From positions 3,776,001 to 3,840,000 of the forward strand of contig NZ_CP060725.1 of NCBI RefSeq assembly GCF_003797775.2: a stretch of DNA of 64,000 nt, in the 5' to 3' direction. The DNA is from Sphingopyxis sp. OPL5. Its GTDB lineage: Bacteria; Pseudomonadota; Alphaproteobacteria; Sphingomonadales; Sphingomonadaceae. A program made the position numbers and the translations under genes. The first letter of the stretch is position 1. Every line of letters starts with the position of its first letter. Below are positions 60,840 to 64,000 of this stretch, piece after piece. The notes under the pieces are model-generated. The model did no database searches and was not told the DNA's origin. It saw only the letters and a list, made by a program, of their open reading frames with translations.

Positions 60840-60858
60840 CCCCGGACTTGATCCGGGG
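60840..60858. repeat. CCCCGGA...TCCGGGG palindrome
   Basis: A perfect 7-bp inverted repeat with a CTTGA core, in the form GTCACCCCGGACTTGATCC common in alphaproteobacterial intergenic regions. A decayed relative lies at 54061-54085. It sits between ntrC and the low-GC operon, close to the point where base composition changes. Confidence 0.6.
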
Positions 60859-60950
60859 GGTATAGTGATAGCTCCGAAAATTATGAGTGATACACCCTTG
60901 ATCGATCCCACTGGGCAATTTCGCGGAGAGACACGTCTCGCTGGCCTCAG

Positions 60951-61988
60951 CTACGAGCCCAAGGCATAGATTTCTTTTTCAATGTCGCGAAAGCGGTCTT
61001 TGACATCCTCGCCCGAATAAAAGGAGAGGAGGTCATCACTCGACAGCGTGCCATCAGAAAGAAATTTTGCCAGATACTTTTGATTGAATTCCATCAAAAG
61101 AAGGCTTTTTTCAATCTGTAAAAGTATTTTTCGGCAATTTTCGATGTTCGAAAAAACTAGATTCTTAATCAGAATAGTTTCACTTATATCTTTTATTATT
61201 CTATTAACAATTATAGTAAGAATATTTCCATCTAACGATATTGGTTTGCTATTTATAGCAATGTCTCGTGCTAGCATGTAGGCAATTGCGAGATTTTGGT
61301 AATCCCCTTTTTGAGAATCTATGATCGTAACGAATCCTATCGAAGGTATAAATCTCACATCTTGTACGAAATTTAGGATAGATCCATCGACAATTGACGC
61401 ATCAAAAACAATGATTCCAACTTTTCCATCTCTATTTGCCTGTGCCTCCAGAAGCTGACTCCAAGCTGTATCCATCTTCTTCGTGAAAACGTCTTTCGAT
61501 TGAATGTCTCCAAGCTTAATCCCTTTGTCAAACTTGCATTCGATCACAATCCGGAGATTTTGACCACCTCCGAGGTGGCAAACGATGTCTCCCGTCTTGT
61601 TGCGAGGGATAGTACCCGCGGAATTGCCTGTCAGTTCGACCTTATCGGGCAGCTTCTGCTTCGATAAGAAATCCTCGAGATATTCTGCGATTTCGTCCTC
61701 AGCTAAAATTCCTTTTACAGAAGTCTTGTAAAATATTTCTCGCTTCATATCGAAAAGTATTTTTAGACTTTCAAGCTCAGTTCCTAATTCATTGCTCGTT
61801 TTAGCTAGGAAACTCGAAATTCGATCCTCGATAAGCGCAAGGACCCCAATGTATAAAGCCTTGTGTAGTTTTTCGTCACGATCAGAAGCTGGAAGCTTAT
61901 CAAAAAATGAAAATACGAGGGCATTGTCAATTTCAAATGAAGAAATCTGCACTCGATTTTTCTGTTGGTCCAAATAGACTATCGCCAT
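60951..61988 (-). CDS. PD-(D/E)XK-type nuclease candidate
   Basis: A 345-residue protein in low-GC DNA. N-terminal helices include a segment HKALYIGVLALIEDRISSFLAK. The centre has a restriction-endonuclease-like core: a helix with LAEDEIAEYLEDFL (near 95-108), then GDIVCHLGGGQ (Asp134) and LRIVIECKFDKG (Glu150, Lys152), giving the D...ExK pattern. The rest is helical, with no other domain seen. It is the last gene of the HerA operon, starting two bases after the KTSC gene. Nuclease activity is inferred from motif only. Confidence 0.7.
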   Translation of the reverse strand: MAIVYLDQQKNRVQISSFEIDNALVFSFFDKLPASDRDEKLHKALYIGVLALIEDRISSFLAKTSNELGTELESLKILFDMKREIFYKTSVKGILAEDEIAEYLEDFLSKQKLPDKVELTGNSAGTIPRNKTGDIVCHLGGGQNLRIVIECKFDKGIKLGDIQSKDVFTKKMDTAWSQLLEAQANRDGKVGIIVFDASIVDGSILNFVQDVRFIPSIGFVTIIDSQKGDYQNLAIAYMLARDIAINSKPISLDGNILTIIVNRIIKDISETILIKNLVFSNIENCRKILLQIEKSLLLMEFNQKYLAKFLSDGTLSSDDLLSFYSGEDVKDRFRDIEKEIYALGS

Positions 61989-61990
61989 CT

Positions 61991-62209
61991 TTAGACTTTT
62001 CCATATCGATAATGGCCTTTGATATTGGCAGCAAGAAACTGTCCCTTCGATTCTGCTCTCTCAAAATCCTGACTTACTTGCGACGGGACATCGTAGTAAT
62101 GATATGTACCACCATTGAGGAAAGTGACCTCCAAAGTCTGAGTTTCATCATCATACCGAATGCTTTGAATGTTCGAAGATTCAAACGCGCCAAATTGATG
62201 CCAGCTCAT
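61991..62209 (-). CDS. KTSC domain protein
   Basis: A 72-residue single-domain protein. It fits the short KTSC family: SSNIQSIRYDDETQTLEVTF, then GGTYHYYDVPSQV and ESKGQFLAANIKGHYRYGKV. The domain is known as an accessory module, also fused to some lysyl-tRNA synthetases, but its biochemical role is unclear. Its ATG shares one base with the stop of the ATPase gene (TAATG), so the two are translationally coupled. Confidence 0.85.
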   Translation of the reverse strand: MSWHQFGAFESSNIQSIRYDDETQTLEVTFLNGGTYHYYDVPSQVSQDFERAESKGQFLAANIKGHYRYGKV

Positions 62210-64000
62210 TATTCATTCTCCTTGGATGCCTTGGGTATGACGGGGCTTTGCTGGCGCCACGCCAGCACAAACTCGTCATATTTTATATCTTTGGGTAGCG
62301 GGATATTCCAGCCACCCGGCGCCATCGAATCCTCTGGCAGAACATCGTCGCAAACAATTGGGTCTTGGCTATCCGGACGCCGATCTTTCGGTGGAGCTTG
62401 GATCATTGTCCTCATTGGGAGTCCGACGGCTTCGCCGAGTACAATCGCCTCGCCAGTCCGCAGGATAGGCAGCATATTAGTCAGCCCCTCCAGATTGTCT
62501 GATAGCGTACCGGTCACATGAGACCGGTCCGTCCCATTGCTGAGCCTTAGCGCGAAGAAAGTGCCGCATTGAGAAAGAATGGTTGAATTGATTTCGGAGG
62601 GGCGTTGACTCACGATCATAGCACCAATTCCGTACTTTCGTCCTTCCTTGACGATCCGCTGGACCACCGATGATGCAGCGCCGTCGAAATTATCATTCAG
62701 ATAAGTGTGAGCTTCTTCCATCACAATGAGTAGCGGTCTTTCCCGCCCACCTTCCGACAGATTGCGTGCCCAAAACAACGCGTCGTAAAGAACCCGCAAC
62801 ACGATGCCGATAATGTCATTCATCATCGATGCCGGTACGCCTGACAGATCGAGGATCGTTATCGGTTTGTCGCTACCCAACCATAGCTTCATCAGGTCGG
62901 GCAGGTCTTTTTCAACTTTCCCGTCTAAATCGGGATGCCAGTCGCCAGCATTAAGGAGGAAATCGAAGCGGGAAACACGAATCTTGGAACCAAGATTCTC
63001 GACGGCCCCTCGAATATTATATCCATCCGGGATGTAATTTATCTTTTCGTCGTCAGATTTGATATTTTTTACTTTTTTGAACCGGGGAGGTCGGCCTATT
63101 TGAGCGTCTCCCATCATGGGTTTTTTAGCCGGGTCTAATTCATAGGCCCAGGTCTTCGGGTCTGATGCGTTCCCTTGCGCGCTATAATAAGTTCCAAATT
63201 CCGTACAGTAGAGGCTGTGCCAAAGCTTGTTCAGGGAGAATGGGATAGGGCTATCGGCACTAATATTATCATCGGTGACACCGGGCCTTTGATATGTTTT
63301 CAGTGTCTCGGCCTTTAGTTCGATCACCCGCTCCAAAATCATGTTTCTTGCTTTGCCATCTGCGGGCAGCGTTCCGAAAGTGACTTTGATAAGTTCGTCG
63401 AAGCTCATTGCCCAGAAGGGTATATGGAGCGGATGCTCATTGGCATTCCGGCTATCCGGGTTGATCTTGAAGATGTTTGCGCGGTCACCCAACGCGCGTG
63501 AATATTCCCCGTGAAGATCGAGAACGACAATGCGGGCCGATGGGAACCGGGTGCTGTCGGATAAAACGTTCAGCAAGCCCGCGACCGTGGTGGACTTTCC
63601 CGAACCGGTCGTGCCCACCACGGCGGAATGCCTAGTAACTAACTTGTTGATATCGACGAGCGCATCGATGGATTCACTCCCAGCAATATGCCCGATCCGG
63701 ACGAAATGATTTTGCTTTCCAGCCTTTCCGTAAATCGCCGCAAGGTCGTCTTCCGAGACCAAATGCACCTCGTCTTCGATGGTAGGATACTGTGAGATGC
63801 CGCGCTGGAACTTTCCAGTGCGATACCCTTCGCCAATTAGCTGCACGGTGATCCACTTATAGCCCGTAGGCATGGTTGCTGAGAGCGCTTCTGGAACAGC
63901 GCTAGCTCCCACCTGAGAAACGATTCCATATAGATCAAGATAACCAACCGGAATCTTGACGAAACTTCCAATCTGACCGATCCGATACCCTTGGCCGCTC
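62209..64000 (-). CDS. HerA-type hexameric ATPase (5' end outside window)
   Basis: At least 596 residues are visible and the frame is open to the window edge. The visible N-terminus, translated from 63999, reads GQIGSFVKIPVGYLDLYGIV, a HAS-barrel. Walker A is GTTGSGKSTTVAGLL, Walker B LLIVMEEAHTYL, and later RPSEINSTILSQCGTFFALRLSN is typical of the HerA/DUF87 helicase family. A GTG at 63912 lies inside the barrel and is not the true start. Such ATPases form hexameric DNA pumps that work with nucleases. Low-GC, unlike the host genes. Confidence 0.88.
   Translation of the reverse strand, partial: SGQGYRIGQIGSFVKIPVGYLDLYGIVSQVGASAVPEALSATMPTGYKWITVQLIGEGYRTGKFQRGISQYPTIEDEVHLVSEDDLAAIYGKAGKQNHFVRIGHIAGSESIDALVDINKLVTRHSAVVGTTGSGKSTTVAGLLNVLSDSTRFPSARIVVLDLHGEYSRALGDRANIFKINPDSRNANEHPLHIPFWAMSFDELIKVTFGTLPADGKARNMILERVIELKAETLKTYQRPGVTDDNISADSPIPFSLNKLWHSLYCTEFGTYYSAQGNASDPKTWAYELDPAKKPMMGDAQIGRPPRFKKVKNIKSDDEKINYIPDGYNIRGAVENLGSKIRVSRFDFLLNAGDWHPDLDGKVEKDLPDLMKLWLGSDKPITILDLSGVPASMMNDIIGIVLRVLYDALFWARNLSEGGRERPLLIVMEEAHTYLNDNFDGAASSVVQRIVKEGRKYGIGAMIVSQRPSEINSTILSQCGTFFALRLSNGTDRSHVTGTLSDNLEGLTNMLPILRTGEAIVLGEAVGLPMRTMIQAPPKDRRPDSQDPIVCDDVLPEDSMAPGGWNIPLPKDIKYDEFVLAWRQQSPVIPKASKENE

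Follow-up and report, generated by a model that had tools for sequence, protein, structure and literature searches.

A SIR2-HerA operon with a separate KTSC gene and a nuclease-like gene, probable cargo of a casposon-like element in Sphingopyxis sp. OPL5

In the DUF4297-HerA system (8xau and relatives), a HerA hexamer is coupled to a nuclease-domain effector, according to the passages of PMC11291478 covered here, and SIR2-HerA systems are presented in part of the review PMC12198126 as anti-phage systems that act by depletion of nicotinamide adenine dinucleotide (NAD+). Furthermore, one sentence of PMC9503650 (2022), referring to unpublished observations, mentions HerA-KTSC-endoDNase loci in which the endoDNase occurs "in lieu of" a sirtuin, the two being mutually exclusive in the passage concerned. 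Here we compare with these systems a locus of Sphingopyxis sp. OPL5 that lies at the edge of a stretch of 64,000 nucleotides (bases 3776001-3840000 of a single 4.68-Mb contig; the window) and carries genes for a HerA ATPase, a free-standing KTSC protein and a nuclease-like protein; features beyond position 64000 are given in window numbering extended past its edge (stretch L005). In our estimate, with a probability of roughly 0.7, these genes and an adjoining SIR2 gene form a four-gene SIR2-HerA anti-phage operon that is the cargo of a bacterial casposon-like element, with the nuclease possibly serving as second effector.

Judged from its sequence, the unit is a four-gene operon in the order SIR2, HerA, KTSC, nuclease, with all genes in one direction. 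The SIR2-family gene (401 amino acids, 64103-65308, outside the window) is co-directional with the HerA gene and overlaps its start by 11 nt; the HerA gene occupies 62209..64000 on the minus strand within the window and starts at about 64113, outside it. One base is common to the HerA stop and the start of the KTSC gene (72 amino acids, 61991..62209, minus strand), and a spacing of only 2 nt separates the latter from the gene for the accessory nuclease-like protein (345 amino acids, 60951..61988, minus strand), whose putative PD-(D/E)XK core, D134/E150-x-K152, is framed by long predicted helices. The guanine-plus-cytosine (GC) content per kb drops from 0.66 to 0.39, with values by gene of 0.39 for the nuclease, 0.42 for KTSC, 0.51 for HerA and 0.50 for SIR2, as against 0.70 for the neighbouring ntrC. 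Three tightly coupled minus-strand genes in DNA of sharply lower GC content had been noticed in the original prediction, and both observations hold. Since two of the three open reading frames have strong family matches, the genes abut and the GC content drops, the arrangement is more than chance. The SIR2 partner was missed at that time because the HerA gene is cut by the window edge and the SIR2 gene lies just beyond it; given this gene, the view of the locus as a HerA-KTSC-nuclease system lacking SIR2 was rejected.

The assignment to the SIR2-HerA type is based on both large partners. Residues N169, D171 and H219 of the SIR2 protein, which we take to be its catalytic residues, are unchanged in all 25 aligned rows. 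The protein matches the Pfam family SIR2_2 (75.4 bits) and two PADLOC SIR2 models (435 and 428 bits), and HerA matches a PADLOC HerA model with 513 bits, as well as the DUF87/HerA central domain (120.3 bits) and HerA_C (32 bits) in Pfam, both above cut-off. The Walker motifs of HerA, described earlier as intact, are indeed invariant (G190/G192/K193 of Walker A and E487 of Walker B in 24/24 rows, L030 and L031 having been dropped from this alignment), but the HAS-barrel that had also been attributed to the protein is absent from its Pfam matches; the N-terminal part of HerA can nevertheless be aligned to the solved HerA 8wiv, beginning at residue 8 of that chain. The closest relatives in the PDB are 8wiv for HerA (661.5 bits) and 8w9l for SIR2 (306.7 bits), and these chains are common to four entries, 8wld, 8woc, 8wod and 8wof, which we take to be the SIR2-HerA complex of Liao et al. 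2024. Because the SIR2 gene lies directly upstream, the PADLOC scores are high for both proteins, and the best solved relatives of both occur in the same entries, the locus can be classified by sequence as a SIR2-HerA system. The earlier claim of an undescribed defence system thus stands in part: the operon is a form of a named system, which it matches in part, whereas defence remains its likely role and the four-gene make-up was not found described. The resemblance to DUF4297-HerA is more limited, since the partner here is SIR2, there is no DUF4297 match, and the window HerA scores 177 bits to 8xau versus 628 to 8wiv in the same search. A HerA-NurA repair pair was considered and rejected, as no NurA match was present among the proteins scanned on either side. 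The genome of strain OPL5 encodes a second HerA-type protein at C1:2882288-2883688 (L002, L003), in an open frame of 602 amino acids with identities of 29% and 39% in two pieces.

The KTSC protein was correctly recognized as a free-standing protein of 72 residues (Pfam PF13619, 85.5 bits, E 2e-24). A profile of 20 KTSC rows from SIR2-HerA loci matches residues 629-696 of the 696 of HerA 8wiv (E 2.4e-27); next come the free KTSC proteins 7x8c (E 2.5e-24) and 4rgi (E 1.3e-22), and then a membrane protein (E 0.0091), whereas the other HerA chains retrieved from the PDB with the window HerA gave no match up to an E value of 10. As the alignment of the window HerA covers residues 8-580 of 8wiv, HerA and KTSC jointly span most of the solved chain. 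Thus, the locus shares with the SIR2-HerA system both proteins, their best solved relatives and the KTSC domain, and it differs in that KTSC is fused to the HerA C-terminus there and encoded by a separate gene here, with a nuclease gene following. Because of this fusion in the solved complex, the free KTSC is most simply seen as the HerA C-terminal domain split off into a separate gene, and the view that it would be a foreign adaptor has to be abandoned. In the passages covered, KTSC is called DNA-binding in PMC9503650 and RNA-binding in PMC7824862; its role in such loci is unexplained in these texts, and the present comparison would assign it to the HerA subunit.

To place the operon among its relatives, 27 HerA loci were read: the window, four genome contigs, 17 plasmid records, four genomes from the same class as strain OPL5 (G042, G208, G738 and G814) and one viral contig. 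The genome contigs, which are all four of the matches in the genome-contig scan, belong to two Longitalea, a Bacteroidales metagenome-assembled genome and Candidatus Velamenicoccus, and the plasmid loci are 17 among the matches listed (40) of 67 at E 1e-40, most of the skipped ones being tied in score with one that was read. Open reading frames were taken from the longest start, which gives some rows extra N-terminal residues. The combination SIR2-HerA-KTSC is present in 25/27 loci, window included, among them a three-gene form on an Escherichia coli plasmid (L022), one locus that is unannotated and was read by open reading frame search (L021), and one in which the KTSC gene, though annotated as such, gives a match at E 0.0019 only (L028). 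Two loci deviate from this: in Agrobacterium (L030) a shortened HerA is accompanied by SIR2 but lacks KTSC, and in Klebsiella (L031) neither gene adjoins a distant HerA of 958 amino acids. Within the latter chain (L031 2385-5261) a weak SIR2 match of 31 bits was seen, which is perhaps a SIR2-HerA fusion. A single locus, from Natrinema, is archaeal. No HerA relative was detected among phage records at E 1e-40, nor any nuclease relative at E 1e-3, and viral contigs scanned with either HerA or PolB gave no relative, such single-protein scans detecting close relatives only.

The nuclease gene follows directly after KTSC in eight of the 27 loci (window, Paracoccus, G042, G738, G814, the viral contig, the Bacteroidales genome and Velamenicoccus), so that the operon of HerA, KTSC and nuclease genes recurs in organisms other than strain OPL5. 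This count is inflated by five of the 27 loci that entered through nuclease searches, L041, L045 and L068 exclusively so and L014 and L039 through HerA or SIR2 as well; of the 23 non-window loci recovered by HerA or SIR2 searches, four have the nuclease. SIR2 adjoins HerA in 26/27 loci, including 8/8 nuclease-bearing ones. The loci of PMC9503650 resemble the present one in that HerA and KTSC are combined with a nearby endoDNase gene, a precedent for the arrangement that had earlier not been recognised from any described system, whereas they differ in that sirtuin is excluded there, as far as the passage goes. The eight four-gene loci do not fit a strict exclusivity of SIR2 and endoDNase. The four-gene operon itself is not described in the passages of PMC9503650, PMC7824862 and PMC12198126 that were covered; the main SIR2-HerA structure papers, which lie outside this coverage, may discuss the KTSC domain. 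The system type is known, but a split KTSC, the joint presence of SIR2 and nuclease with the latter as an exchangeable addition, and carriage by a casposon-like element next to a palindromic repeat were not found described within the searches made, palindromic casposon targets not having been searched.

The defence operon appears to be cargo of a casposon-like element of 13,146 bp that extends from 60859 to 74004 (L005 4859-18004; outside the window beyond 64000). Its ends are inverted repeats of about 14 nt that start with GGTATAGTGAT, and 16 of the first 20 bases agree; the left one, GGTATAGTGATAGC, is at 60859..60872 on the plus strand and the right one ends at 74004, outside the window. 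The element is flanked on both sides by an exact 19-nt direct repeat, a GC-rich quasi-palindrome resembling repetitive extragenic palindromes (REP-like), of which the left copy, CCCCGGACTTGATCCGGGG, occupies 60840..60858 (plus strand). This repeat, which has 19 exact copies in the genome versus 0 for a backward control, is probably both the target and the target-site duplication. Of the 17 other copies four were read, and one of these (L010) combines the bases preceding the left flank (tcgtca) with those following the right flank (cctgcc), while two match the left side only and one matches neither; L010 as a stand-in for the empty chromosomal site is suggestive only. The empty site itself was not recovered, the right-flank DNA having matched in 4/60 genus genomes, own included, and in the other three over merely 25-29 bases.

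The element encodes a solo Cas1 (114.6 bits), which is a relative of the Cas1 enzyme of CRISPR, a PolB (DNA_pol_B, 24.4 bits, cut-off 23), a serine recombinase, a helix-turn-helix protein of 86 amino acids matching HTH_3, and an HNH-like protein of 120 amino acids that has no Pfam or NCBIfam match and is tentatively named from a weak PADLOC HNH match (E 0.0096) and a Cys/His pattern seen by eye. The pair of solo Cas1 and PolB is also present in L056 (G123), L065 (G766), L066 (G600) and L067 (G680). PolB relatives were found in 4/296 genomes of the order and Cas1 matches in 6/289 of the class, own included in both, G123 being the only one besides the own with a near full-length Cas1 match. Cas1 fragments were seen in G140 (L057) and in viral contig L058. 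The serine recombinase is present in L005, L065 and L066, and since it gives no match in G680 and G123, Cas1 is the likely integrase of the element. For three of the relatives both ends were found, and these are similar and situated inside GC-rich palindromes on both sides, the palindrome copies having a single-base difference or runs of unequal length and there being no exact duplicate at both junctions; for L066 the right end alone was found. The copy in G680 (L067) lies inside a terminator-like hairpin that is followed by a T-rich stretch.

The described elements that come closest are casposon families 2 and 3, which in the part of PMC4046053 covered likewise have solo Cas1 and PolB genes, terminal inverted repeats and flanking direct repeats, and also HNH and helix-turn-helix genes, to which the HNH-like and HTH_3 proteins found here may correspond; the differences are the serine recombinase, for which there is no counterpart in this 2014 set, and the GC-rich palindromic flanks. 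The same source reports Sir2-like genes on three published casposons and a HerA-like gene on one, and it is alone in connecting casposons with SIR2 in the literature covered, the passages covered elsewhere on casposon cargo and defence being without such a system. If our interpretation is correct, a multi-gene anti-phage module would be tied to a casposon-like element. Given this location inside a mobile element, and the presence of 17/27 loci on plasmids, it can be envisaged that the operon is a device of its carrier for stability or for competition with other mobile elements such as plasmids, rather than directed against phage. We consider this unlikely, as the homologous SIR2-HerA systems are anti-phage in the passages of PMC12198126 covered, and the plasmid share reflects the choice of a plasmid collection.

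The nuclease-like protein is an accessory component. Its sole Pfam match is PDDEXK_15, at 18.4 bits and thus below the cut-off of 27, and when seven members of its family were scanned, 13 Pfam families gave weak matches, including PDDEXK_15 and Mrr_cat with a single member each. The core proposed earlier, D134 and E150-x-K152, is conserved without change in 10/10 aligned rows (the window and nine relatives; a truncated copy in G899, without the region of these residues, is not among the rows). A structure model is of low confidence, with a mean predicted local distance difference test (pLDDT) score of 52.5. In PHROGs the best match has an E value of 0.066. When the PDB was searched with a profile of the nuclease alignment, weak matches alone were obtained, mostly to coiled-coil chains (best E 0.029), and these were not used. 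An identity as DUF4297 was rejected, as that family was matched in none of Pfam, PADLOC and NCBIfam up to an E value of 10.

Searches with this protein yielded two of 72,556 plasmid records, none of 50,697 phage records and one viral contig, as well as 3/385 genomes of the class, 3/398 of the phylum and 3/166 of the order, sets that overlap and in which the own genome is counted each time. Since nuclease and HerA identities are discordant, the nuclease appears to have passed from one HerA lineage to another, entering at the same position behind KTSC. The Velamenicoccus locus has 61% nuclease and 39% HerA identity with the window; its nuclease is 61% identical to those of the window and Paracoccus, and its nearest HerA is that of a nuclease-free Citrobacter locus (61%). 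Similarly, G814 shows 64% nuclease and 43% HerA identity with the window, which provides its nearest nuclease, and its nearest HerA is from a nuclease-free Pseudoalteromonas locus (62%). The Bacteroidales locus, with 48% and 50%, shows no discordance. On a HerA tree of 25 rows (L030 and L068 left out; the tool gave a long-branch warning), the distribution of the nuclease requires four gains or losses, at least three of which are forced by well-supported branches, and in label shuffles 14/500 do as well as the observed four changes. The discordance suggests that the nuclease entered the position behind KTSC at least twice, in different HerA lineages.

It could be argued that the nuclease is an unrelated passenger, or a small toxin beside the operon, with no joint function. 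Relatives without the operon do exist, in Halosegnis (22% identity), in G213 (36%) and as the truncated copy in G899, and both the nuclease and the KTSC gene have a lower GC content than HerA. However, five of the eight distinct relatives that nuclease searches gave besides the window are in the operon directly after KTSC, the three exceptions being the most divergent or truncated, and repeated entry into one slot, as suggested by the discordant trees, makes a passenger distinctly unlikely. The G213 nuclease is near two integrase-like open reading frames, as read by eye.

Restriction systems commonly combine a motor with a PD-(D/E)XK nuclease, which would agree with HerA, KTSC and nuclease being a restriction-like system of their own, with the nuclease as effector and SIR2 as a separate neighbour. 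We regard this as very improbable in spite of the HerA-KTSC-endoDNase loci in lieu of sirtuin mentioned in the passage of PMC9503650, because SIR2 adjoins in all nuclease-bearing loci and in every HerA locus but L031, with its internal weak SIR2 match, and no HerA-KTSC-nuclease locus without SIR2 was seen in a sample gathered with the window's proteins, in which more distant HerA loci may be missed.

For a SIR2-HerA operon carried by a casposon-like element, the following course of events can be envisaged by analogy with the known systems, from which the defence function is inferred as well. SIR2 and HerA would assemble into the large complex known for the SIR2-HerA system, and HerA, with KTSC at its C-terminal side, would engage and pump invading DNA. 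Assembly or DNA engagement would then turn on SIR2, so that NAD+ is consumed and the infected cell stops phage production. The nuclease, if held near KTSC/HerA, could cut the DNA pumped by HerA and thus act as second effector; its docking on KTSC/HerA is the least secure step. A hint that KTSC and nuclease have adapted to each other or travel together comes from KTSC likeness beyond that predicted from HerA, which among locus pairs with HerA identity below 55% has a mean residual of +7.4 points if both loci have the nuclease (18 pairs), +1.1 if one has (118 pairs) and -1.7 if none has (118 pairs), the pairs being non-independent and without a significance test.

Several points weigh against this interpretation. 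The nuclease is absent from 19/27 loci, which implies that the core works without it. The PD-(D/E)XK assignment depends on a motif, on the invariance of its residues and on a model whose mean pLDDT is 52.5, and the KTSC residuals come from pairs that are non-independent. The position of KTSC at the C-terminal side of HerA in the split form is taken solely from the order in the fusion, and the activity and phage protection predicted for this particular operon are deduced from homology at the sequence level.

Casposon-like elements are thought to be at the origin of CRISPR adaptation. A more far-reaching and tentative idea, which we consider less likely than not, is that KTSC, once separated from HerA, serves as a docking platform for exchangeable effectors encoded in the next slot (the nuclease in eight loci, a SLATT-domain gene in Pseudoalteromonas), so that one sensor-motor drives both NAD+ depletion and DNA cutting, and that a hairpin-targeting casposon family spreads such cargo among bacteria.

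Some other genes were seen at corresponding positions. In the Pseudoalteromonas locus with the HerA nearest to that of G814, a gene with a SLATT domain (L024 5256-5810) is located 10 bases after KTSC, in the slot of the nuclease, and it is possibly another exchangeable effector. In Natrinema (L029 5464-6441), two genes annotated as ADP-ribosylglycohydrolase family are situated directly at and after KTSC. The related element of G123 (L056 5016-19073) carries different cargo, consisting of a P-loop protein of 1355 amino acids with a weak NACHT match under cut-off and a DUF4143 ATPase that matches PADLOC PDC-S01.

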